A DNA stretch of 28,502 nt. It comes from a virus. Positions 2,595-28,170 of the stretch are shown here, in pieces. How positions within the stretch are numbered: position 1 is the first letter of the stretch; each line of letters opens with the position of its first letter. A program made the translations under genes and the position numbers. The stretch covers positions 1 through 28,502 of the IMG/VR virus record IMGVR_UViG_3300010354_000451; one strand, written 5' to 3'. Under the pieces are notes generated by a model. That model searched no databases. It had not been told where the DNA came from and saw only the letters and a program-made list of their open reading frames with translations.

Positions 2595-4718
2595 ATGCCG
2601 CTGACGAAACTTCAATTCAGGCCTGGGGTAAACAGGGATGTCACCTCGTACACCAACGAGGGCGGCTGGTTCGACTGCGAGAAGGTGCGTTTCCGACTGG
2701 GGTTCCCGGAGAAGATCGGGGGCTGGACGCGGACGTCGAACAACAGCTTCCTGGGGACCTGCCGGTCCATTCATCCCTTCGTCGCCCTGGATGGAAGCAG
2801 CTACATCGGCGTCGGGACGCACCTGAAGTTCTACATTTCTGAGGGTGGCGCCTACAACGACATCACCCCGATCCGCCTGACCACGGCGGCAGGTGCAGCC
2901 ACGTTCTCGGTTCCGGTCGACACGCTTTCGGCTGGCATCTCGGCGTCTGACGCAACCATCCCGCTGACAAGCGTCACGGGGTTCCCGTCGTCTGGCCGGA
3001 TCAAGATCGACTCCGAGCAGATCACCTACAGCGCCATCAGCGGGAGCAGCCTGGTCGGATGCACCCGCGGCGTTGACGGGACCACGGCGGCGACTCACTC
3101 GTCGGCCGCGGACGTCTTTTGCAGCACGGTGACCGTGACGGTCATCGGCCACGGTGCCCGGCAGGGGGACTTCGTGACGTTTTCGGCCGCGGCCTCCCTG
3201 GGCGGAAACATCACGGCGGCGATCCTGAACCAGGAGTACGAGATCCTCTCCATCGAGGACAGCGACACGTTCACCATCGACGCTCGCACAGTCTCAACCC
3301 TGGCTTCGATCCTCACCGCCGGCGTTCTCAACCCCACCTACGTCTTCTCCAATGCGTCGGACACGGGATCCGGAGGAGCATCGACCGTCGCGGAGTTCCA
3401 GATCAACACCGGCCTCGACACGACGGTCCAGGGGACTGGATGGGGCGCCGGCTCCTGGAGCCGCGGGTCGTGGGGTTCGGGCTCTTCGTCGCTGATCTCT
3501 GGCGAGACGCTGCGCCTGTGGAGCCAGGACAACTACGGCGAGGACCTTGTCTTCGGGATCCGGGACGGCGGGATCTTCTACTGGGACAAGAGCACCAGCT
3601 CTTCTCCTTTTGCCCGTGGAGTTGCGCTCAGCGACCTTGCTGGAGCGGATGCGACCACTCCCACCGTGGCACGAAAGGTACTGGTGTCGAACCGTGACCG
3701 GCACATCCTGGCGTTCGGATGCGACCCGGAGACGGACATCGGGACGCAGGATCCTCTGCTGATCCGGTTCTCCAGCCAGGAGAGCCCGACGACGTGGACG
3801 ACGCTGCCGACGAACAGCGCCGGCGAGCTGCGTCTGAGCACGGGTTCCAAGATCATCACCGCAATCGAGACCAGGCAGCAGATCCTGGTGTTCACGGACG
3901 TGTCGGTGAACGCCATGCAGTATCTTGGCCCACCGTACACGTTCGGAATTGCCCAGCTCTCCGACAACACGACGATTTGCGGGCCTAATTCTGCAATCGC
4001 CGTCGACGACAACGTCTTCTGGATGGGCATAGACAACTTCTACGTCTACACCGGACAGGTGAATGTCCTTCCTTGCCCGATTGAGAGCTACATCTTCAAT
4101 GACTTCAACAAGGGGCAGGCGGAAAAGTCCTTCGCGACATTGAACTCTTCGTTTTCGGAGGTGTGGTGGTTCTACTGCTCTTCCTCGTCCAGCGAGATCG
4201 ACCGGTACACCGTGTTCAACTACAAGGAAAACGCTTGGTACTACGGCCAGCTTGTTCGCACGGCATGGGTTGATCGCGGCATCCTTCCGTACCCTGTTGC
4301 GGCGGCATCGGATGGCAGGCTGTACTACCATGAGAACGGGCTGGATGACGGAACCACGGAGCCCGCGTCGGCCATTACAAGCTACATCAAGAGCAGCGAC
4401 CTCGCGATTGGGGCCGGGGATCACTTTGTGTTCCTCAACCGGCTGCTTCCAGACGTAACTTTCGATGCTTCTACAGCCGTCTCGCCGGCGGTCGACCTTG
4501 TTCTCGAGTCTCGAAATTTTCCTGGGCAGAGCTACCAGCAGACCGAGTCTTCAACCACGACGCGTTCTGCTACCGTCCCCGTCGAGCAGTTCACCAACCA
4601 GGTCAACCTTCGACTTCGCGGTCGGTCGTTTGCCTTGAAGGTCCAGTCAACGGCGGCCGGCGTCCAATGGCGCCTTGGCTCCCCGCGGGTCGAGGTTCGC
4701 CCTGACGGGAGGCGCTGA
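2595..4718 (+). CDS. Large tail nozzle / DNA-stabilisation-type structural protein
   Basis: The 707-residue protein opens with a conserved phage signature, MPLTKLQFRPGVNRDVTSY followed by GGWFDCEKVRFRLG. A long beta-rich region follows with repeated W/F/G motifs such as DLVFGIRDGGIFYWD, MQYLGPPYTFGIAQLSD and VFWMGIDNFYVYTG. The pattern fits a propeller-like tail protein comparable to the P22 gp10 / T7 nozzle type; I infer that role without a structural match. Residues ~109-176 hold an additional beta module (FPSSGRIKIDSEQITYS and CTRGVDGTTAATHSS) found in many phage tail proteins. SD GGAGG at 2583-2587 supports ATG 2595. The stop overlaps the next ATG. Confidence 0.7.
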   Translation: MPLTKLQFRPGVNRDVTSYTNEGGWFDCEKVRFRLGFPEKIGGWTRTSNNSFLGTCRSIHPFVALDGSSYIGVGTHLKFYISEGGAYNDITPIRLTTAAGAATFSVPVDTLSAGISASDATIPLTSVTGFPSSGRIKIDSEQITYSAISGSSLVGCTRGVDGTTAATHSSAADVFCSTVTVTVIGHGARQGDFVTFSAAASLGGNITAAILNQEYEILSIEDSDTFTIDARTVSTLASILTAGVLNPTYVFSNASDTGSGGASTVAEFQINTGLDTTVQGTGWGAGSWSRGSWGSGSSSLISGETLRLWSQDNYGEDLVFGIRDGGIFYWDKSTSSSPFARGVALSDLAGADATTPTVARKVLVSNRDRHILAFGCDPETDIGTQDPLLIRFSSQESPTTWTTLPTNSAGELRLSTGSKIITAIETRQQILVFTDVSVNAMQYLGPPYTFGIAQLSDNTTICGPNSAIAVDDNVFWMGIDNFYVYTGQVNVLPCPIESYIFNDFNKGQAEKSFATLNSSFSEVWWFYCSSSSSEIDRYTVFNYKENAWYYGQLVRTAWVDRGILPYPVAAASDGRLYYHENGLDDGTTEPASAITSYIKSSDLAIGAGDHFVFLNRLLPDVTFDASTAVSPAVDLVLESRNFPGQSYQQTESSTTTRSATVPVEQFTNQVNLRLRGRSFALKVQSTAAGVQWRLGSPRVEVRPDGRR

Positions 4719-6422: not shown

Positions 6423-7570
6423 TGTCCTCCACGACCACCCAGATCGTCCGCGAAAACCCCGAGATCGAAGCCTACAGGCTTGCCCTTCTCGGGGACGTCC
6501 AGGGCTTCCTCAAGGACCAGCTCGCGCGCGAGACCTCCGGCCTTCCTGGGTACCAGGTCGCCGGACTGACGCCGGCAGAGACCACGGCTTCGCAGATTGC
6601 CCAGATGGGTGTCGGCTCCTACCTCCCCTATCTGAAAGGTGGGGCCCAGAACATCCAGGCCGCCCAGAACGTCCTGGCCGGAACCGCCCTCCCGGCCATC
6701 CAGGGCGCCGGCCAGTACATGGGACAGGCCGCGAACCTGGCCGCGGCCACCCGTGGCATCCCCTCCCAGTACCAGCAGGCCGCCTACCAGGGCCTGGCCG
6801 GCACCGGCGCCGCGTACGACCCCAGCCAGGTCACGTCCTTCCTCAATCCCTTCGAGCAGGCCGCCATCGACCAGACGATGGCCGACATCAACCGCCAGGG
6901 GCTCTTGCAGCAGCAGGCTGCGAACGCGCAGGCCGTCGGTCAGGGCGCGTTCGGCGGCTCGCGGGCCGCGATCCAGCAGGCGGAGATCGGCCGGAACGTC
7001 CTGGAGCAGCAAGCGCGGACCGCGGCCCAGATGCGGATGGCCGGCTTCCAGCAGGCGTCGCAGCAGGCGCAGCAGGCCTTTGAGCAGGCGCAGGCTCGGC
7101 GGCTCCAGGGTTCGCAGCTCACGGGCCAGCTCGGCCTTGGCTATGGCCAGTTGGCGCAGGGTGACGTCGGACAGCTCGCGGCCATCGGCCAGGGCATCGG
7201 CGGCCTTGGCACGGCGGCCGGCAACCTGGGCATGCAGGTGGCGCAGACCGGTCTCCAGCAGACGCAGCTCGGCCAGGCGCTCCAGGCCGGCGAGACCGCC
7301 GACATCGCGCGCCTGATGAACGTAGGCGCGGTGGGCAGGTCGCAGCAGCAGGCCGCGCTGGACGCTGCGCGGCTCACGGCTCTCCAGGAGGCGCAGTTCC
7401 CGTACCAGCAGTACTCCTACATGTCTGATATCCTGTCCAAGACCCCGTCGTCGCAGCAGTCCATGGGCGCGACGACGGCCCAGCCGGTGTCTCCGTTCCA
7501 GCAGCTTGTCGGGACGGGGATTGCCGGCCTCACCGCCGCCGCAGGCGCGCAGAAGCTGGGGCTGTTCTGA
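6422..7570 (+). CDS. Gln/Ala-rich internal virion protein candidate (382 aa)
   Basis: The protein begins with a conserved-looking TQIVRENPEIEAYRLALL segment. Most of it is low-complexity helix rich in Gln, Ala and Gly (QQAANAQAVGQGAFGGSRAA; QQASQQAQQAFEQAQARR). It ends with a distinct FPYQQYSYMSDIL motif and a hydrophobic, Ala-rich tail (LVGTGIAGLTAAAGAQKLGLF). The composition resembles small ejection/internal core proteins of podoviruses (the T7 gp14-like role). This is an analogy from size, position and composition rather than detected homology. It is coupled to both neighbours by one-base stop/start overlaps. Confidence 0.65.
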   Translation: MSSTTTQIVRENPEIEAYRLALLGDVQGFLKDQLARETSGLPGYQVAGLTPAETTASQIAQMGVGSYLPYLKGGAQNIQAAQNVLAGTALPAIQGAGQYMGQAANLAAATRGIPSQYQQAAYQGLAGTGAAYDPSQVTSFLNPFEQAAIDQTMADINRQGLLQQQAANAQAVGQGAFGGSRAAIQQAEIGRNVLEQQARTAAQMRMAGFQQASQQAQQAFEQAQARRLQGSQLTGQLGLGYGQLAQGDVGQLAAIGQGIGGLGTAAGNLGMQVAQTGLQQTQLGQALQAGETADIARLMNVGAVGRSQQQAALDAARLTALQEAQFPYQQYSYMSDILSKTPSSQQSMGATTAQPVSPFQQLVGTGIAGLTAAAGAQKLGLF

Positions 7571-10062
7571 TGAATCCTCTCACGCGTCCTCTGTTCCGAC
7601 AGGCCGGTGGTCCGGCGAGCCCCATGCCGCAGGACATGGCTCCTATGGGTGGCGTGGCATCGTTTGGTGCGCCGCAGCATATGCAGATCGTGCAAAGCAC
7701 GGCGCAGAAGCAGATGGCTCCGGTGGGCGAGGAGTATGCTCGCCAGACGATGGCGGGGATCGACCAGTCGCAGGACCCGGAGAGCCTGATCAACGCCATC
7801 CGCGGTAACCAGAAGCCCCTGGAGGCCCGGTACCAGGAGCTGGCACAGCTCGTGGGGTCTCAGGATGCGATGCAGACGCCGGAGTCGGTCCTGGCCCTGG
7901 TCCAGCCGGCCCTGATGATGACGGAGCAGGGCGCGGTCGACAGCGGAATTGGCGAGCTGATGCAGAAGATCGCCGGCGGCGTGGCGATGGAGGGTCCGGA
8001 GGGACAGCCTGGGAACATGGGCGCCGGCGTGGGCTCCCTGATGATGCAGGGGGCTGGCCAGGCGCCGCCCGCAAATTTTAACCTGCCCCCTGGGATCCAG
8101 GGGTTCCAGGAAGGCGGCGACGTGTCCCCGGACAGCCGGGGAGGCACACGCGTCGATCCTGAGACGTACAAGCGCTATCTCGCGGAGCTTCAGGGCCTGG
8201 AGAAGACGCCGATCACCAAGGAGCTGTCCGAGGCTCGGGACGTCGCGCAGGCGCAGGCGCTGTTCGACATCGCCCAGGGCGGCCTCCTCCTGGCCGGCGG
8301 TGCTCCTGGTGGAGGGTCGTTCGCCCAGCAGGCGGCCGCGGCCTTCGCCCCGGTTGCCGGCAGCCTGGGCAAGCGCGGCGCGGAACTCCAGGCCGCGGAG
8401 CGCGCGCTGAAGAAGGAAGCGCGCGCGGAAGACATCGCCCTGCGCAAGCTCGCGGCGGAAATGGCTCGCATCCCGGATCGGGCGACGAATCTGCACCAGC
8501 TCGTCGACCGAAACGGAAACGTCCTGGCCACGGCAAACATCAACGATCCAAAGGCGTACGCCACCCTGGAGACCTTGCGCGCCAAGACCCCTGGTTCGGA
8601 AATCTTCCGTGTCGGCACGCCTCCCGCTCCGCGGGAGTACACTCCGAAATTCATGCAGCTCCTGGATTCCAGCGGGAGCCAGGTCGGGGTGTTCGACGCC
8701 AAGAATCCGTCGTCCATGGCGGCTGCCCTGAAGTATCAGCAGGAAAACGGTGGGCAGATCCTCGACATCGGCACGCCCGTATCTCCTCGCGCGCCAAACC
8801 TGGTCAAGGTCGTCACTCCGGACGGGGAAGAGTTCGTCGTCAACATGGCGAATCCTGGTGCGGAAGCCAGGCTTCAAGAGATTCGCCAACGCAAGCCTGG
8901 AAGCAGGGTATTCTCCGTTAGCGCAGAACCCGCACCGGCGGCTCCTAATACGGTCACTTTTGTGGGATCCGACGATTCCAGGATCGTTCTTGACCTCAAG
9001 AATCCGCGGGACATGGCAACGCTTCGGGAAATTCAGCTGAAAGATCCTAACGGGAGGTTCTATCTTCCCGGAACAGAGCCCAAGCCTACCAAGGATACGC
9101 TTGCTGAAAAGCAGGCTACGCTCCTCGGAAATCCCGACATCGCTCGCCGGTACGCCAACAACACCCTCGACGAGGCCACCACCGGAGAAGTCGAAGCCTT
9201 GCTTGCCAGCAAGGCAAAGGATGCCCCGGAGATATCGACCACGGTCAACGGAGTGCTGGTCAAGAGGCGAGCGCTTCCGTTCGCGAGTTTCTGGGGGGAT
9301 GCAATCACCGCGCGCCAGGCGAGGGGCCTGCCCGTTCCCCCGATCACGATGGAAGGAGTCCTGTTCACCTCGGCCGGAGCAGCGCCGCCTGCCGCAGTTC
9401 CGCCTGCCGCAGCTCCGCCCGCCGCACCTGCGCCCGCCGCACCTGCGCCCGCCGCACCTGCGCCTGCCGCAGCTCCGCCCGCCGGAGCGCGACCTGCCGG
9501 CGCTGCTGCTCCGGCAATCCAAGACAGGCAGGCTGCCGCAGAAATTGGCCAGATCCAGAACGCGTTTGGTGTTGGCGCGGCCGTTTACAATGCCCTGAAT
9601 TGGCTTGGTGGAACCGCGGAAATTGGTTCCGCCGATCCCGACACGGCAAAGGCCATAGCGTCCATCCGGCTCCTCAACGAGCGCACCGTCAAGACCATCC
9701 TCAAGACCTATGGTCGAGACACGGCTGAGAAACTTCGTCAAGACCTCAAGGCACTTGTTCCTGTGCCGGGGTCTGTTGGTGGGGGCGGTACCAGCGGAGC
9801 CCGCACCAAAATCACGGCTCTTGTCGGCTACCTCGACAACGAGATCCAGCTCCTTCAGGAAAGCCTCACGGAAGAAGGGCAACGGGAGGCTTTCAAACGC
9901 GCTCCTGGGCTTGAATCCAGCGGCGACCGCAGGCGTCAGTCCCTTGCAGAGTTGCAGAATATCCGAGAACTTTGGTCCAGGGTCCTGGGAGCGAAGAGCC
10001 CCGAGGAAGAGGTCAACGCGGTACAGCGCGGCAGGGAGATCCTGCAACAGCGCCGGAAATAA
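7570..10062 (+). CDS. Repeat-containing internal virion protein candidate (830 aa)
   Basis: The N-terminal third is helix-prone and includes GGDVSPDSRGGTRVDPETYKRY. Residues ~307-508 hold four consecutive ~50-residue units, starting near 307 (NLHQLVD), 360 (KFMQLLD), 410 (NLVKVVT) and 460 (NTVTFVG). Each has a beta hairpin with a G/D turn, an 'NDP/NP' motif, a helix, and an ending like GSEIFRVGTPPAP. After residue ~598 a Pro/Ala linker is encoded by six 15-bp units (9391-9480), followed by a helical C-terminus. Size and place between the 382- and 1294-residue proteins fit an internal core protein (T7 gp15-like position). Function is inferred. The ATG overlaps the previous stop. Confidence 0.7.
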   Translation: MNPLTRPLFRQAGGPASPMPQDMAPMGGVASFGAPQHMQIVQSTAQKQMAPVGEEYARQTMAGIDQSQDPESLINAIRGNQKPLEARYQELAQLVGSQDAMQTPESVLALVQPALMMTEQGAVDSGIGELMQKIAGGVAMEGPEGQPGNMGAGVGSLMMQGAGQAPPANFNLPPGIQGFQEGGDVSPDSRGGTRVDPETYKRYLAELQGLEKTPITKELSEARDVAQAQALFDIAQGGLLLAGGAPGGGSFAQQAAAAFAPVAGSLGKRGAELQAAERALKKEARAEDIALRKLAAEMARIPDRATNLHQLVDRNGNVLATANINDPKAYATLETLRAKTPGSEIFRVGTPPAPREYTPKFMQLLDSSGSQVGVFDAKNPSSMAAALKYQQENGGQILDIGTPVSPRAPNLVKVVTPDGEEFVVNMANPGAEARLQEIRQRKPGSRVFSVSAEPAPAAPNTVTFVGSDDSRIVLDLKNPRDMATLREIQLKDPNGRFYLPGTEPKPTKDTLAEKQATLLGNPDIARRYANNTLDEATTGEVEALLASKAKDAPEISTTVNGVLVKRRALPFASFWGDAITARQARGLPVPPITMEGVLFTSAGAAPPAAVPPAAAPPAAPAPAAPAPAAPAPAAAPPAGARPAGAAAPAIQDRQAAAEIGQIQNAFGVGAAVYNALNWLGGTAEIGSADPDTAKAIASIRLLNERTVKTILKTYGRDTAEKLRQDLKALVPVPGSVGGGGTSGARTKITALVGYLDNEIQLLQESLTEEGQREAFKRAPGLESSGDRRRQSLAELQNIRELWSRVLGAKSPEEEVNAVQRGREILQQRRK
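9391..9480 (+). repeat. Six tandem 15-bp units encoding a Pro/Ala linker
   Basis: Units begin at 9391, 9406, 9421, 9436, 9451 and 9466. The 9421 and 9436 units are identical (GCCGCACCTGCGCCC), the 9451 unit differs only at its last base, and the others differ at a few bases. They encode AAVPP, AAAPP, three AAPAP and AAAPP. The near-identity of the middle units indicates recent slippage expansion inside a flexible linker. Confidence 0.85.
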
Positions 10063-16106: not shown

Positions 16107-16880
16107 ATGGCCATCACCAAGCCCGAGACCGCCGCCCTGCCGTCGGTCGATTCGTCGATGTTCGAGGCCGATGCCGGCCTCGGCCTCCAGGGGATGTCGC
16201 AGAGCGACTACGCGCTGCCGTTCCTCAAGGTCCTGTCCAGGCAGGACCCGATCCTCGATGACCTGGAGGCGGCCCGTCCGGGCGACATCCTCAACACGGT
16301 CACCAACCACGTCTACAAGGGCAAGGATGGCGTCCGCGTCATCCCCTGCGCCTACCAGCGCCGCTACATCGAGTGGGCGCCGCGTGGCCAGGGCAACGGG
16401 GCTCCGGTCAACATCTTCACCCCGGAGGACCCGCTCCCCAAGACCGAGAGGTCGAAGGACGACAACCGCGAGTACATCGTCGGCGGCGGCGGCAACTACC
16501 TCGACGAGACGCACCAGCACTTCGTGCTCGTCGTGAACGAGGATGGATCCTTCTCCCAGGCCATCATTGCCATGAAGTCCACCCAGCTCAAGAAGAGCCG
16601 GAAGTGGAACTCCATGATCGCCGGCCGCGTCATGATGGGCAAGGCCGGGCCCTTCGTGCCGCCGCGGTTCTCGCACGTCTATCTGCTCAAGACCGTGCAC
16701 GAGGAGAACTCCAAGGGCTCCTGGCACGGGTGGGAGATCTCCGTGCAGGGCGCCGTCCTCGATGCCGCTCTCTACCAGCAGGCCAAGGGCTTCGCCGCGA
16801 GCATTGCGCGCGGCGACGTCAAGGTGAAGCACACCGACGACGGAGAGGCCACCAGCGTGGGTGACGACGTCCCCTTCTGA
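16107..16880 (+). CDS. SSB-like protein with DDVPF tail (257 aa)
   Basis: ATG 16107 is preferred because AGGGG at about 16094-16098 is correctly spaced; an upstream GTG at 16101 is almost on top of that SD. The protein has a conserved ALPFLKVLSRQDP entry, a PGDILNTVTNHVYKGKDGVRVIPC strand region, a YIEWAPRG segment, a long central domain with aromatic strands, and an acidic C-terminal tip GDDVPF resembling the partner-binding DDIPF tip of bacterial SSB. Together with its position beside primase, helicase and polymerase, a single-stranded-DNA-binding role is likely though inferred. Homologues are often left as hypothetical proteins. Confidence 0.65.
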   Translation: MAITKPETAALPSVDSSMFEADAGLGLQGMSQSDYALPFLKVLSRQDPILDDLEAARPGDILNTVTNHVYKGKDGVRVIPCAYQRRYIEWAPRGQGNGAPVNIFTPEDPLPKTERSKDDNREYIVGGGGNYLDETHQHFVLVVNEDGSFSQAIIAMKSTQLKKSRKWNSMIAGRVMMGKAGPFVPPRFSHVYLLKTVHEENSKGSWHGWEISVQGAVLDAALYQQAKGFAASIARGDVKVKHTDDGEATSVGDDVPF

Positions 16881-19985: not shown

Positions 19986-20266
19986 AAAGACACGAGGTTC
20001 TCATCCAGGCCGCCGACCTGATCGACGGCGCGCGCCACCAGAACTACGGGTCGGCCCACAAGAATTTCGACGACATCGCACGCATCTGGAGCGTCCTGAG
20101 GGACGGCAGCAAGGACGAATTCGACGGCGTCGATGTCGCCATGTTCATGATCGCCACCAAGCTGGCCAGGCTCATGAAGAGCCCGAACAACCCCGACCAT
20201 TGGATCGACATCGCGGGGTACGCGGCCCTCGGTGCAGAGATCGCCACCATGGACTCCAATCCATGA
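19982..20266 (+). CDS. DUF6378-like small phage protein
   Basis: ATG 19982 overlaps the helicase stop by 4 nt; the upstream open frame is a shadow inside the helicase. The 94-residue protein contains LIQAADLIDGARHQNYGSAH, NFDDIARIW, DVAMFMIATKLARLM and DHWIDIAGYAAL, the conserved order of the DUF6378 family. The acidic helices with DHWIDIAGYA recall all-alpha nucleotide pyrophosphatase-like proteins, but the function of this family is unproven. Position between helicase and polymerase suggests support of DNA synthesis. Confidence 0.75.
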   Translation: MKRHEVLIQAADLIDGARHQNYGSAHKNFDDIARIWSVLRDGSKDEFDGVDVAMFMIATKLARLMKSPNNPDHWIDIAGYAALGAEIATMDSNP

Positions 20267-22164
20267 CTACGAAGCTCCAGTTCCCCATGTTCTCCAAGCC
20301 TTCGGAATGGCTCCCGGTGGCCGAGTTCCCGTCCATCGAGGGCTTTGACGAGATCGCCGTCGACACGGAAACGCGCGACCCGAACCTCAAGACGATGGGG
20401 CCCGGCTGGCCGCGCCAGGACGGCGAGATCATCGGCTTCGCCGTCGCCACCAAGGGATGGAGCGTCTACCTTCCCATCGCCCACCTGGGAGGCGGCAACC
20501 TCGACAAGCGCCTCGTCCTGAAGTGGATGAAGCACGTCTGCGAGAGCCCCGTCGACAAGGTCATGCACAACGCCCAGTACGACCTGGGATGGCTGCGCGC
20601 CACGGGGATCGAGGTCAAGGGACGCGTCTTCGACACCATGGTCGCCGCCAGCCTCGTCGACGAGAACCGCTTCAGCTACAGCCTCAACGCCCTGGCCTAC
20701 GACTACCTCGGCAAGGTCAAGGCGGAGGGCGGCCTGACCGCCGCGGCTCGCGAATTCGGCGTCGACCCGAAGGGGGAGATGTGGAAGCTGCCGGCCATGT
20801 ACGTCGGACCCTACGCAGAGGGCGACGCGTCCCTGACGCTGGAGCTGTGGGACCACCTCAAGGCGACCATCGCCAAGGAGTCCCTGACCACCGTCTGGGA
20901 CCTGGAGACGCGCCTGCTGCCCTGCATCCTCGACATGACGTGGCGCGGCGTGCGCTTCGACATCGACAAGGCCGAGCGGGCACGCCAATACGTCCGGAAG
21001 GTGGAGAAGGACGCCCTGGCCAGCATCCGCTCCATGGCCGGCATGGACGTCGAGATCTGGGCGGCCCAGAGCATCGCCAAGGCCTTCGACAAGCTCTCCA
21101 TCGCCTACCCGCGCACGGACAAGGGCTCGCCCTCCTTCAAGTCGTCGTTCCTGTCGTCCTGCGAGCACCCGCTGGCCAAGGCCATCCACGAGGCGCGCGA
21201 GGTCAACAAGATCAACGGCACCTTCATCGACGGGCTGATGAACACCGTGCGCAACGGGCGCATCCACAGCCACATCAACCAGATCCGGTCCGACGACGGC
21301 GGCACCGTCACCGGCCGCATTTCGATGAGCAACCCCAACCTCCAGCAGATCCCGGGCCGCAACCCGGTCCTCGGGCCGCTTGTCCGAGGCCTGTTCCTGC
21401 CGGAAGAGGGCGAGACCTGGGCCGGCATCGACTTCAGCCAGCAGGAGCCCCGCATCCTCGTCCACTACGCGGCGCTCTACGGCCAGAGCCGCGGCATCGA
21501 ACTCCCCGGCGTTTCGGAATTCGTCCGCAGCTACAACGAGAACCCCAACCACGACTTCCACCAGCTCGTCGCGGACATGGCCGGCATCTCCCGCAAGGAG
21601 GCCAAGGTCATCAACCTCGCCATGATGTACGGCATGGGGGTCAACAAGCTCGCCGGCGAACTCGACGTCTCCGTCGACGAGGCCAAGGACCTCACCAAGC
21701 AGTACCACGAGCGCGTCCCCTTCGTGCGGGCCCTCAGCCAGGCCGTCCAGAACAGGGTCGACGACCCGCGGTCCGAGGGCGCCCTGCGCACCCTCAAGGG
21801 ACGGAAGTGCCGCTTCGACCTCTGGGAGCCCCAGGGCTTCCAGGCCCACAAGGCCCTGAAGCACGTCGAGGCGCTCGCGACCCACGGCCCGGGCGTCCGC
21901 CTGCGCCGCGCCTACACCTACAAGGCCCTCAACCGGCTCATCCAGGGCAGCGCGGCCGACATGACCAAGCAGGCGATGGTCAACCTCTACGAGGCCGGCA
22001 CCACGCCGATCCTCCAGGTGCACGACGAGCTGTGCATGTCCGTCCGCGATGCGGACCAGGCCCGGGCCATGTCCTGGGCCATGCAATCGGCCATCCCCCT
22101 GGCCGTTCCACTCAAGTGCGACATCGCACTTGGGCCTTCCTGGGGCGAGTCAGTTGAAGTATAG
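20263..22164 (+). CDS. polA: Family A DNA polymerase with 3'-5' exonuclease
   Basis: The start is ATG 20263, overlapping the previous stop (ATGA). The 633-residue protein has an intact exonuclease domain: VDTET (Asp34, Glu36), HNAQYD (Asp107) and YAEGD (Tyr184, Asp188). The polymerase domain has TGRISMSNPNLQQIPG, motif A GIDFSQQEPRI (Asp390), motif B RKEAKVINLAMMYGMG and motif C QVHDEL (His587-Asp588-Glu589). It lacks the 5' nuclease domain, as T7 polymerase does. The residue equivalent to E. coli Phe762 is Leu452 (the INL of motif B), placing it in the Leu762 class of phage enzymes. It is the replicative polymerase, last in the operon. Confidence 0.97.
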   Translation: MTTKLQFPMFSKPSEWLPVAEFPSIEGFDEIAVDTETRDPNLKTMGPGWPRQDGEIIGFAVATKGWSVYLPIAHLGGGNLDKRLVLKWMKHVCESPVDKVMHNAQYDLGWLRATGIEVKGRVFDTMVAASLVDENRFSYSLNALAYDYLGKVKAEGGLTAAAREFGVDPKGEMWKLPAMYVGPYAEGDASLTLELWDHLKATIAKESLTTVWDLETRLLPCILDMTWRGVRFDIDKAERARQYVRKVEKDALASIRSMAGMDVEIWAAQSIAKAFDKLSIAYPRTDKGSPSFKSSFLSSCEHPLAKAIHEAREVNKINGTFIDGLMNTVRNGRIHSHINQIRSDDGGTVTGRISMSNPNLQQIPGRNPVLGPLVRGLFLPEEGETWAGIDFSQQEPRILVHYAALYGQSRGIELPGVSEFVRSYNENPNHDFHQLVADMAGISRKEAKVINLAMMYGMGVNKLAGELDVSVDEAKDLTKQYHERVPFVRALSQAVQNRVDDPRSEGALRTLKGRKCRFDLWEPQGFQAHKALKHVEALATHGPGVRLRRAYTYKALNRLIQGSAADMTKQAMVNLYEAGTTPILQVHDELCMSVRDADQARAMSWAMQSAIPLAVPLKCDIALGPSWGESVEV

Positions 22165-22191: not shown

Positions 22192-22599
22192 ATGCCCCCA
22201 GTTCCAGTCTTCGGCTCCAAGAGCCGCAAGTACAAGTCCATCATCATCCATCGAGAGAACTACGAGGAGCTGGCGGTCATCGCCAAGATCGAGGGACGGT
22301 ACATCACCGGACAGTTCCGCATCATCCTCGACACCTGGAAGCGACAGAACCTCTCCAAGAATGACCTGGCCTTCCTCTCCGCGGAACTCTCCGCCCTGCG
22401 CGCAGAGCGCGACAAGCGCGAAGAGGCCGAGATCGCCTCCGAGCGCAGGCTCCGCGAGCTGGAGGAGTCCGGCATCATCCCCCGACGGGTAAAGCTGCCG
22501 CCAAGGCCAGGGCGTCAGAAGAAGCGAGAAATGTCCGAAGCGGATGAAATCCTCTCCAAGATCCCCCAGACGGCAGACAAGGAGCCATCCGATGGGTAA
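22192..22599 (+). CDS. Ribbon-helix-helix-like DNA-binding protein candidate
   Basis: The 135-residue basic protein has a strand (KSIIIHR, residues 15-21), a helix (NYEELAVIAKIEG), a turn and a second helix (TGQFRIILDTWKRQ), which fits the ribbon-helix-helix fold of Arc/MetJ-type regulators. Residues 55-93 form a charged coiled coil (LSALRAERDKREEAE), and the tail is Lys/Arg/Pro-rich. It may be a phage transcription regulator; the fold assignment comes from pattern only. SD GAGG at 22183-22186 supports ATG 22192. The stop overlaps the methyltransferase start by 8 nt. Confidence 0.5.
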   Translation: MPPVPVFGSKSRKYKSIIIHRENYEELAVIAKIEGRYITGQFRIILDTWKRQNLSKNDLAFLSAELSALRAERDKREEAEIASERRLRELEESGIIPRRVKLPPRPGRQKKREMSEADEILSKIPQTADKEPSDG

Positions 22600-23182
22600 G
22601 CGCAGCTCGTTCGAACGCCACCCCCAGGACTTCTACGTCACCCCCAAGGTCGCCATCTGGCCGCTCCTCCCGCACCTCGAAGGACAGCATCTGATGACGG
22701 AGTCGGCTTCGGTCGACACCTTCTACGAGCCCTGCGCCGGCGACGGCGCACTCGTCAGGCACCTCCTCGAAGAAGGACTGGGCTGCGCCGGCGCGTCAGA
22801 CACCACGCCTCGCGGCCCGCGGATCGCGACCAAGGATGCCCTCACCCTGACCGAGGCCGACATCGCCTACTGCGACGCCATCATCACCAACCCGCCCTGG
22901 GACAGGAAGGTCCTCCACCCGCTCATCGAGCGCCTCTCCAGCCTGCGGCCGACCTGGCTGCTTCTGGACTCCGACTGGGTGCACACGCGCCAGGCCATCC
23001 CCTACATGCCCAGGCTGCGCACCATCGTCAGCGTCGGGAGGCTCAAGTGGATCCCTGGCAGCAAGATGACCGGCAAGGACAACTGCTCATGGCACGAGTT
23101 CGTCGACCCCGAAATTCATCCGTTCCAGGCGACCGCATTCTACGGTCGTCTGAGCCACGCAAATGGACACGATGCCTCCTGA
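22592..23182 (+). CDS. Adenine-specific DNA methyltransferase candidate
   Basis: The 196-residue protein has the SAM-binding motif FYEPCAGDG (residues 44-52) followed by the amino-methyltransferase catalytic motif TNPPWDR (NPPW at 100-103), typical of N6-adenine methyltransferases. It is short and has no obvious target-recognition domain or partner restriction enzyme, so it looks like an orphan phage enzyme, possibly protecting phage DNA or marking replication. ATG 22592 is supported by AAGGAG at about 22579-22584; the upstream open frame is not needed. It overlaps the upstream gene by 8 nt. Confidence 0.8.
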   Translation: MGKRSSFERHPQDFYVTPKVAIWPLLPHLEGQHLMTESASVDTFYEPCAGDGALVRHLLEEGLGCAGASDTTPRGPRIATKDALTLTEADIAYCDAIITNPPWDRKVLHPLIERLSSLRPTWLLLDSDWVHTRQAIPYMPRLRTIVSVGRLKWIPGSKMTGKDNCSWHEFVDPEIHPFQATAFYGRLSHANGHDAS

Positions 23183-23686
23183 TCCCGGCCAAGGAGAAGG
23201 ACTTCGAGCCATGGGCACGGCTGCGAAGAGAGCCGGTTCGAACTTGAGCCCTATGAACCGAAGTGGAGCGCAGACGAACTGTCCTACGACAACTACCTGG
23301 GCTTCCTGGCGATGCAGCGCACGCATGGACGCGCGCACTTCTTCGCCTTCGCGGAATTCGAGGACAGCCAGGACCCGGAATTCGTCGGCGGCGTCTACTT
23401 CAGTCACTTCTTCGTCGGCAGCGAAAGCTCCTGCCGCATCGCCTACTGGATCGGGACCAGGTACCACGGCATGGGCCTGGCCACCGAAGCTGTCCGCGGC
23501 GCGTGCCGCTTCGCGTTCAACAATTTCCGTCGCGTCGAGGCCTTCGTCGCTGAGGACAACGTGGCCAGCCAGAGGGTCCTTGAACGCAACGGCTTCCACA
23601 TGGAGGGCTTCTGCCGCGAGAACCTCCAGGTCAACGGCAAGTGGACCGACCACATACTTTACGCCATCTTGAGGAATGACCAATGA
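23163..23686 (+). CDS. RimJ-type GNAT N-acetyltransferase with broken N-terminal frame
   Basis: The intact part (frame open from 23183, first ATG 23312) encodes the GNAT core: YWIGTRYHGMGLATEAV (acetyl-CoA loop), FNNFRRVEAFVAEDNVASQR, VLERNGFHMEGF and a final NGKWTDHILYAIL. The expected N-terminus is in other frames. RCLLIPAKEKDFEPWARLRRE (about 23170-23232) lies in the next frame and ends at a stop at 23245. It joins SRFELEPYEPKW (from 23231) exactly if two bases of the AGAGAG run at 23227-23232 are restored. A similar ACAC site at 23166-23170 would connect it to ATG 23163. It may be a pseudogene, sequencing error or programmed shift. Confidence 0.75.
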
Positions 23687-24072
23687 CCTCCTCCAAATCC
23701 CGAAACGGCAGGTACCTCGTCACCCACGATTCGCTCTGGGAAAAGGTAAGCAAGATCGACGGTGAGTTCACGTCGAGCGATGTCATGCTGCTCTTCGAGA
23801 ATGCCAACCCGAACGCCGTTTCGGGAGGGCTGACCCACCTCGTGCGCAAGAAAAAGCTCATCTGTTCGCGGACCGAGGTGCACAAGAGCAATCGCCACGT
23901 TGTCTACTACACCGTCAACCCCGACTACGACGAAGAGGACGACGATGGCCATTCCTCCGTCGGGATCGGCAATGGGGACAAGATCTTTGCAAAGTTGATG
24001 GGATCACGCCGGTATCAGGACTTCATCCCCGCGCGCCACGCGTCCAAGGAATCCAAAAGTTCTTCTGCCTGA
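23683..24072 (+). CDS. Possible winged-helix protein (129 aa)
   Basis: ATG 23683 overlaps the acetyltransferase stop (ATGA). Residues ~15-80 look like a winged helix: SLWEKVSKIDGEFTSSDVML (helix-turn), NPNAVSGGLTHLVRKKKLI (candidate recognition helix), and two strands CSRTEVHK and HVVYYTVNP (wing). This is followed by an acidic stretch DEEDDD and a basic Ser/Lys-rich tail. This resembles small phage DNA-binding proteins that sense whether genes can be expressed; the fold is inferred. It is the last gene before a probable transcription break. Confidence 0.5.
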   Translation: MTSSKSRNGRYLVTHDSLWEKVSKIDGEFTSSDVMLLFENANPNAVSGGLTHLVRKKKLICSRTEVHKSNRHVVYYTVNPDYDEEDDDGHSSVGIGNGDKIFAKLMGSRRYQDFIPARHASKESKSSSA

Positions 24073-25650: not shown

Positions 25651-25964
25651 GCGACGACCTAATCACATCTTTGCGCGCACTAGCTGCCGCGCGACACGAC
25701 GATCTCTCCATCGCCGTTGATGCGGTGATTGAGATTGAGCGGCTGCGGGCCGAACGCGATGCGCTGCGATACGCGGCCAGAGAATATCTGGAGACGCTGG
25801 GCGGCGCGATGAAGTCTGGCAGGTTCGAGATGAGCGGATCTGCCGAGATGGCGCATTTCGTCCGGCAGGCGATGCAGCGTTTGGATTCGCTTGTGTTCGA
25901 CCGCGCCGGTCCGCGCCCAGCCGGTTTAGAGAAACTGCACGAACCGCACGGGAGGGCCTCATGA
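25647..25964 (+). CDS. Coiled-coil small protein 1 (105 aa)
   Basis: ATGA overlap at 25647-25650. It contains IEIERLRAERDALRYAAREY, the first copy of a coiled-coil module that recurs in three later genes. A second helix holds EMAHFVRQAMQRLD. The stop overlaps the next ATG, with an SD (GGGAGG, 25950-25955) in its last codons. Function unknown; a structural or oligomerisation role is possible. Confidence 0.5.
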   Translation: MSDDLITSLRALAAARHDDLSIAVDAVIEIERLRAERDALRYAAREYLETLGGAMKSGRFEMSGSAEMAHFVRQAMQRLDSLVFDRAGPRPAGLEKLHEPHGRAS

Positions 25965-26656
25965 AGCAAGATCCATTTGCAAACGTCTATCGCGCGCTGA
26001 CGCCGAAAGAATTGGCTGAGATGTTCATGAACCCAAATGCTCCTAAGACAGAAGCAGAGCATTGGGCTGTGCGCGAGATTGAGCGGCTGCGCGCGGAGAT
26101 CGAGCGGATGCGCGACGAGGACACCAAGACCAGACACGCTCTGAAAGGGTGGGTCTTCGTCTGCCCAGACGGAGGCGATGAGCCGACGCATGAGCGTGTC
26201 TCTGCGGTCGTGGCAGAGGTCGAGAAACTGCGCGCGGAGCTGGCTCTGGAGAAGTCTGGTTTCGTCTTGCAACGAGGCCGGATCGAGAAGCTGCGCGCGA
26301 AGATCGACGAACTGATGCGCTCCCACGAGATGATCGCGGACGTTATGCGGAAGGAGTCCAACCGAGCCGACGAGGCTTGGGCAGAGGTCGAGAGGCAGCG
26401 CGCGGAGATCGAGCGGCTGCGCTCGCAGGTAGAGGCCGTTAATCTTCTAAAGGCCGAAATCACGCTGCTGCGCAAGGCTCTTGAACCTCTCGCCCAGCTA
26501 TATCTATGGCCCGACGATCTTGGAGAAGACATGGCAAACCTCATTCGCTCAGATGATGATTGGAGCGAGGAAGCTAACGAGGATGCGGACAGCGACGTCT
26601 TCATCAAGCGGAAATACATTCGGGCAGCGCGTCACGCTTTGGAGGGGAAGCCATGA
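25961..26656 (+). CDS. Coiled-coil protein 2 (231 aa), multi-copy heptad module
   Basis: The N-terminus (FANVYRALTPKELAEMFMNP) is followed by several module copies: EIERLRAEIERMRDED, VEKLRAELALE, RIEKLRAKIDELMRSHEMIAD and VERQRAEIERLRSQVE. The C-terminal region is acidic (DDWSEEANEDADSD) and ends RHALEGKP. Heptads with Leu/Ile at the core positions predict a parallel or antiparallel coiled coil. There is no enzymatic motif. The last five codons include GGAGGG, which serves as SD for the next gene (ATGA overlap). Confidence 0.55.
   Translation: MKQDPFANVYRALTPKELAEMFMNPNAPKTEAEHWAVREIERLRAEIERMRDEDTKTRHALKGWVFVCPDGGDEPTHERVSAVVAEVEKLRAELALEKSGFVLQRGRIEKLRAKIDELMRSHEMIADVMRKESNRADEAWAEVERQRAEIERLRSQVEAVNLLKAEITLLRKALEPLAQLYLWPDDLGEDMANLIRSDDDWSEEANEDADSDVFIKRKYIRAARHALEGKP
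26075..26113 (+). repeat. Coiled-coil DNA module, copy in gene 25961
   Basis: GAGATTGAGCGGCTGCGCGC leads into a second GAGATCGAGCGG half. Comparable copies lie at 26384-26422, 26758-26796, 26866-26892, 26980-27018, 27971-27994 and 28037-28063, with a divergent one at 25728-25757. The shared core is CGCGGAGATCGAGCGGCTGC. Confidence 0.7.
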
Positions 26657-27129
26657 CCGACATCATCGCACTAGCGCGGCGCCACAAGCACATCGCCTCG
26701 CACTACGAGGGCTGCGAGGCCGATCACATTGGCTGCCTCGTTAACCGATTGGCCGACGAGGTCGAGAGGCTGCGCGCGGAGATCGAGCGGCTAGGCGCAA
26801 GCATCCTGAGCCTAGCAAAGAGCCTGCGTGCATCGCTTGACGCCGCGATCCGTCAACGCGACGAAGCGCGCGCGGAGATCGAGCGGCTGCGCGTCGATCT
26901 CGCCACCCAGCAGAACTGCTGCGATGGAGCAGCGGCGCAGGATGCTCACGTCCGCCGGGAGCGCGAGGAGCATCGGGCCGAGGTCGAGAAGCTGCGCGCG
27001 GAGATCGAGCGGCTGAAGCAGGAGCCCGAGCTTCTGCGCGCGGAACTGATCGCGCTCACCAACGCCGCGCGCAAGGCGCTGGCGAACGCCTACGACCGGG
27101 CGCGCAATGCGCCGGAGGGCAAGCCATGA
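26653..27129 (+). CDS. Coiled-coil protein 3 (158 aa)
   Basis: The N-terminus (ALARRHKHIASHYEGCEADH) with two Cys (CEADHIGC) could bind metal with nearby His. The rest has module copies VERLRAEIERLGA, ARAEIERLRVDLA and VEKLRAEIERLKQ, and a tail ending APEGKP. The gene shares its repeat DNA with the flanking genes, indicating intragenic and intergenic duplication. Function not recognised. The stop overlaps the next ATG within the EGKP/SD unit. Confidence 0.5.
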   Translation: MTDIIALARRHKHIASHYEGCEADHIGCLVNRLADEVERLRAEIERLGASILSLAKSLRASLDAAIRQRDEARAEIERLRVDLATQQNCCDGAAAQDAHVRREREEHRAEVEKLRAEIERLKQEPELLRAELIALTNAARKALANAYDRARNAPEGKP

Positions 27130-27320
27130 GCAAGTATTCCCCAGACAACGGGCCGCGGCCCGCGGGCCTGATCGACACGCCGGCCGGCCTGCGCGCCAGG
27201 GCGCGGTACAGGATCGAGGAGGCCAGGCGCCATCCGGACGGAAGCGCGGAGCAGCGCAGGCACCTGGTCATCGCCAACGAATACCTGGATCGCGCCGACG
27301 CGGCCCAGCGCCCTTCTTGA
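27126..27320 (+). CDS. Small basic protein (64 aa)
   Basis: ATG 27126 overlaps the previous stop and uses GGAGGG at 27114-27119 as SD. The protein has a disordered N-terminus (KYSPDNGPRPAGLIDTPAG) and an Arg-rich helical C-terminal half (RARARYRIEEARRHP, HLVIANEYLDRADAAQ). It is not recognised as a known family. Coupling suggests co-expression with the coiled-coil genes. Confidence 0.45.
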   Translation: MSKYSPDNGPRPAGLIDTPAGLRARARYRIEEARRHPDGSAEQRRHLVIANEYLDRADAAQRPS

Positions 27321-27334
27321 TAGGGGCGACCGTC

Positions 27335-27565
27335 GTGGCGGACATTTCCAGGTGGAACCGCGCGCATCGAGGCGCCTTCCTGAAAGGCGTGCACGCCAGG
27401 CTCCTGGACGAGCCGATCAGCTCGTGCCCCTACGAGGACAAGCGCAAGCCAAGTGGCCGCCTGAGCTGGTCGAGGTCGTTCATCTCGGCGTGGAGAGACG
27501 GGTGGATGCACGCAGACACGGACCGTCAACAGGCCCTGATCACCCTGCAATATGCGAGGAAGTGA
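27335..27565 (+). CDS. RMF/CrpP-like small protein (76 aa)
   Basis: I place the start at GTG 27335, with AGGGG at 27322-27326 eight bases upstream; TTG 27317 is an alternative. The protein has RGAFLKGVHARLLDEPISSC then PYEDKRKPSGRL and FISAWRDGWMHADTD. The C-P-Y motif followed by W-x-x-GW resembles the ribosome modulation factor/CrpP-like fold, small proteins that bind ribosomes or affect host enzymes. This is a pattern match only. It lies in the accessory gene run. Confidence 0.5.
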   Translation: MADISRWNRAHRGAFLKGVHARLLDEPISSCPYEDKRKPSGRLSWSRSFISAWRDGWMHADTDRQQALITLQYARK

Positions 27566-27568
27566 CCC

Positions 27569-27814
27569 GTGCGCATCACCCCACTTGAGGCTGTTCCGGA
27601 TGCCGTATGCCCGGGGTGCGGAGGGACTGGCGGCGTCCACAAGGACACGCGCCTGGTCTACGTGACCGGCGAGCTGGGGAACAAGATCGTGCTCCTGTGC
27701 CGGAAGCCCGTCAGGGTCTGCTGCGGGTGCGGCGCTGAATTCGAAAACACCCAGGACGGAGACTGGCGGGCAGAGGCCTACGAGGCCATGAAGAAGATGG
27801 AGGGCAAGACGTGA
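27569..27814 (+). CDS. Zinc-ribbon-like protein (81 aa)
   Basis: GTG 27569 starts 4 nt after the previous stop. Two CxxC-like knuckles, CPGCGG (Cys14, Cys17) and CCGCGAEF (Cys51/52, Cys54), flank a beta hairpin (RLVYVTGELGNKIVLL), the hallmark of a zinc ribbon. A C-terminal acidic/basic helix (WRAEAYEAMKKMEGKT) ends with GGAGGG coding for EGK, the SD of the next gene. The function is unknown; protein or nucleic-acid binding is likely. Confidence 0.55.
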   Translation: MRITPLEAVPDAVCPGCGGTGGVHKDTRLVYVTGELGNKIVLLCRKPVRVCCGCGAEFENTQDGDWRAEAYEAMKKMEGKT

Positions 27815-28170
27815 ACAGACCACGGCCGGCGCAACTGGATCTGCTGCTGACGATCTCCGAGGGCCTGTCCCGGGGGGCGTACGAGATGCTGCGGGTCTCT
27901 CCGACGGACGCTCTTCACCCTCCGTCGTGCGGCCTCGCAATCCGAGATGCCGTCGAGGAACTCAAGTGGATGCGCGCGGAGATCAAGCGACTGCATCAGG
28001 CGCATCAGGCTGCATGTGAGGGCGGTGATCTGCTGCGCGAGGAAATCGAGCGGCTGCGCGCGGCGTTGACGGACATCGCGAATCAAGAGACGGCTGGGCC
28101 GTACAAGTGGCATTTAGTTGTTGAGCATCTTTGCGAAATTGCACAAGAGGCGCTGGAGGGCAAGCCATGA
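27811..28170 (+). CDS. Coiled-coil protein 4 (119 aa)
   Basis: GTG 27811 overlaps the upstream stop (GTGA) with the SD at 27799-27804. The N-terminus (RPAQLDLLLTISEGLSRGAY) precedes two divergent module copies (WMRAEIKRLHQAH and LREEIERLRAALTD). The tail ends AQEALEGKP. It belongs to the same repeat-built group as the genes at 25647, 25961 and 26653. No function recognised. Confidence 0.5.
   Translation: MNRPRPAQLDLLLTISEGLSRGAYEMLRVSPTDALHPPSCGLAIRDAVEELKWMRAEIKRLHQAHQAACEGGDLLREEIERLRAALTDIANQETAGPYKWHLVVEHLCEIAQEALEGKP

Follow-up and report, generated by a model that had tools for sequence, protein, structure and literature searches.

An acetyltransferase gene split over two reading frames in a phage contig is probably a recently disrupted accessory gene

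The virus record IMGVR_UViG_3300010354_000451, a linear sequence of 28,502 bases that was analysed over its whole length (hereafter the window), codes for phage structural and replication proteins and contains an acetyltransferase gene of the RimJ/RimL type that is distributed over two reading frames. On balance, we favour the reading that this accessory GNAT gene was disrupted near its 5' end in the phage itself and probably represents a recent pseudogene. A base loss during the determination of the contig sequence is a possible but less likely explanation, and translational recoding appears improbable. The split gene is flanked by a methyltransferase-like open reading frame (22544-23182) and a reading frame of unknown function (23683-24072), for which no relatives were found in the viral contigs searched.

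The N-terminal segment of the acetyltransferase, RCLLIPAKEKDFEPWARLRRE, is encoded on the plus strand in frame 1 at 23170-23232 and comprises 21 residues; its reading frame is closed by a TGA at 23245-23247. The remainder of the protein including the acetyl-CoA-binding core is encoded on the same strand in frame 2 at 23231-23686 without an internal stop, and this core frame is open over 23183-23686. These frames and coordinates correspond to the description given in the sequence-only reading, and three lines of evidence agree with its proposal of a RimJ-type GNAT protein split between them. First, a scoring matrix built from homologues only was applied along the window in all six frames, and RCLLIPAKEKDFEPWARLRRE in frame 1 obtained the top score of 56,880 positions against the homologous GNAT N-terminus; the score at 23170 was 29.7 compared to 10.7 for the next best position (6.8 versus 4.4 SD above the mean), a match that is not fully independent because the joined protein was used for the choice of matrix columns. 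Second, the codon-usage model, which is independent of homology and was trained on other genes, excluding those for the GNAT and the methylase, placed 23176-23223 in frame 1 and 23224-23682 in frame 2, giving the order frame 2, frame 1, frame 2 along the locus. Third, frame 2 alone matched the PF13302 profile over positions 38-138 with 67.9 bits, and full coverage of the profile (positions 1-138, 77.4 bits, above the gathering score of 25.4) was reached only when both segments were read. Judged by these comparisons, the segment 23170-23232 is a genuine GNAT N-terminus. A read-through of the methylase stop codon TGA 23180 into the in-frame core was considered and rejected, because the codon-usage signal of frame 2 is strongly negative at 23183-23230.

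Homology settles the GNAT fold, and the match to the PF13302 (Acetyltransf_3) domain exceeds the gathering score. With 64.1 bits, obtained with the core, against an equivalog cut-off of 190 bits for RimJ (NF008072), the predicted acetyltransferase is RimJ-like but not RimJ itself. It resembles the RimJ/RimL-type GNATs in covering the full PF13302 profile when both frames are read, and shares about 30-36% identity with RimJ-like proteins of Alphaproteobacteria, but differs in that its coding frame is split after 21 residues.

The position of the break was determined by trying each breakpoint with a shift of -2 and +1. The best breakpoint was a -2 shift at 23228/23231, i.e. at the plus-strand AGAGAG run at 23227-23232, with a homology score of 40.6, while the best +1 reading reached 29.9 and the reading without shift -22.4. 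Hence, the earlier suggestion that both parts join at the right length with a net change of -2 at this run was borne out, and the shift preserves the distance from the conserved Trp to the WEP/YEP motif in the ungapped block of homologues. Dinucleotide runs of 6 nt are present in only 2% of the 12-nt intervals in the window. The coincidence of the breakpoint with a slippage-prone AG run is therefore notable, and slippage offers a natural explanation of the break. A search with a degenerate DNA pattern spanning the junction returned no match, and neither it nor the scan of viral contigs with the GNAT core gave a near-identical record.

The sequence-only reading had regarded a contraction at a second repeat as an equal alternative; restoring AC in GACAC (23166-23170) would link the ATG at 23163-23165, which lies on the plus strand in frame 0 and thus outside the frames of both GNAT pieces, to frame 1. 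This equality was not upheld: a repeat of the type XYXY is found in 40% of the 16-nt intervals, such that this one cannot be told from chance, the restored AC would remove the methylase stop at 23180 and carry that protein past it, and with AC restored in place of AG, translation in the N-terminal frame would still end at TGA 23245. The start of the acetyltransferase represents a separate problem. The N-terminal frame has no ATG, GTG or TTG after 23089, the only usual start upstream near the gene with no stop in between being ATG 23089, 94 bases inside the methylase reading frame, and the first usual start codon of the core frame is ATG 23312. Candidates for the original start are CTG 23179, which overlaps the methylase TGA 23180, or ATG 23089.

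The window polA is about 65% identical to the polA of many viral contigs, and in three phages found through it (L048, L051 and L053) a GNAT gene occurs at the same genomic place, i.e. after polA and a small gene homologous to 22192-22599, each time as a single unbroken frame. Five further viral contigs (L104, L105, L107, L108 and L109) also carry single-frame homologues, and another one (L103) is cut at the end of its contig but open from the first base; L106, L110 and L111 duplicate the contigs L048, L051 and L053 and were left out of the count. In the profile search over all loci, the matches of the viral-contig homologues start at profile positions 6-13, compared to position 34 for the open frame of the window. 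A bacterial protein of L020 also begins late (position 68) and is more distantly related. When viral contigs and genomes were scanned with the GNAT core as a single query sequence, no relative or one distant one was obtained, and an apparent N-terminal match in L008 sits in another gene and is a chance hit. The GNAT genes of the three syntenic phages share place and collinear N-terminus with that of the window, but are encoded in a single frame that begins with ATG and includes a leader of about 40 residues, and no methyltransferase gene lies between them and the preceding small gene. In L048, the GNAT gene (3363-4031) with this extra N-terminal leader overlaps a preceding reading frame of 57 amino acids by 38 nt.

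The window, in turn, carries, after the small gene downstream of polA and before the GNAT gene, the adenine-specific DNA methyltransferase-like reading frame (phrog_799; 22544-23182, plus strand, frame 2). Its homology to relatives stops at FYGR (about 23149) and is followed by a tail of 10 residues, LSHANGHDAS, extending past the point where most relatives end. As L048, L051 and L053 are without the methylase gene at this place, its insertion may have removed or replaced the original GNAT start.

These relatives also argue against a regulated use of the two frames. It can be imagined that tRNA-Glu on GAG 23230-23232 re-pairs with GAG 23228-23230, such that a programmed -2 frameshift gives the full-length enzyme; the re-pairing would be perfect, the product would have the right length, and -2 shifting is known from phage Mu (PMC5009743). 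However, neither a two-frame arrangement nor an AG run occurs at this site in any of the homologues, L048 for example showing no such run at the position equivalent to 23227-23232, whereas conservation of both frames and of the shift site among relatives characterizes programmed frameshifting. In phage Mu, which shares the net -2 change, the shift occurs in a tail gene and makes two products. No reason is seen why an enzyme should need two products. An AAGGAG-like stretch exists upstream, though it encodes KEK and lies 30 nt or more away; the downstream fold appears unremarkable (z -1.4, with 18 of 200 shuffles folding equally well), and the N-terminal frame lacks a good start codon. We therefore regard programmed frameshifting as improbable. 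Similarly slim is the chance that an unconserved -2 slip at GAG-GAG lets the recently broken gene still yield low amounts of full-length enzyme ('corrective' frameshifting). Another explanation, a functional short acetyltransferase of 124 amino acids starting at ATG 23312, is also very unlikely: its best Pfam match still has an E value of 6e-18, but PF13302 positions 1-55 are missing, no homologue has a Met at this position, no Shine-Dalgarno-like sequence precedes the ATG, and the upstream frame-1 codon usage indicates that the N-terminus was coding. Related phages sharing the window's frames and a conserved start between 23183 and 23312 had been named in the sequence-only reading as evidence that would count against it; none was present among the homologues, and single-frame relatives without such a start speak against both programmed frameshifting and the short form. 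Of its three readings, a broken gene and a loss of AG in the assembly remain, while a shift of the ribosome is disfavoured, because all homologues found, from phages and bacteria alike, use a single frame. Hence, a frame oddity that could be mistaken for recoding was resolved by syntenic relatives.

The intact single-frame homologues are those expected for a frameshifted pseudogene. Alternatively, the gene may be intact in the real phage, the contig having lost two bases of the AG run. This consensus or assembly error is compatible with the break at a tandem repeat and with the intact core collinear with homologues on both sides; the core shows strong codon usage over about 450 nt without stop, as would a working gene with such an error. 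Moreover, homology-validated singleton frameshifts in prokaryotic database genomes are expected to be mostly sequencing errors (Antonov et al., PMC3711429). Against an error stands the absence of any other frame break across 28.5 kb. No sense-strand splits were found in other genes of the window that have homologues, such that the damage is confined to GNAT, and within conserved genes the codon model showed no further frame switch that lacks an explanation. A switch at 1055-1445 is ambiguous, and apparent split frames at 16140 and 20220-20280 proved to be antisense shadows at gene boundaries. Furthermore, the sole break hits a rare accessory gene making up about 2% of the contig, and the absence of a start codon would have to be explained separately. 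GNAT is carried by only 3 of the 65 polA relatives counted, namely those with at least 1.5 kb of downstream DNA, which makes it a dispensable accessory gene and shows that the acetyltransferase is swappable in this phage group. On this indirect evidence, the lack of any other split gene together with the accessory status leads us to prefer a real recent lesion to an error. In such a lesion, slippage would have deleted a dinucleotide in the phage lineage and thereby turned GNAT into a pseudogene, the still intact core indicating a young event. The missing N-terminal start might be a second sign of decay, perhaps caused by the insertion of the methyltransferase gene just upstream. The full-length enzyme would then not be made, and the most that could appear is a peptide terminating at TGA 23245 or a shortened core beginning at ATG 23312.

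Two minor observations concern other parts of the window. The codon model briefly changes frame at 9376-9511, where the reading frame 7570-10062 encodes a Pro-Ala repeat (APAAPAPAAP), probably reflecting composition only. Finally, a run of small reading frames at 25961-28170 has coiled-coil stretches similar to IERLRAEIERL in common and possibly represents duplicated genes.
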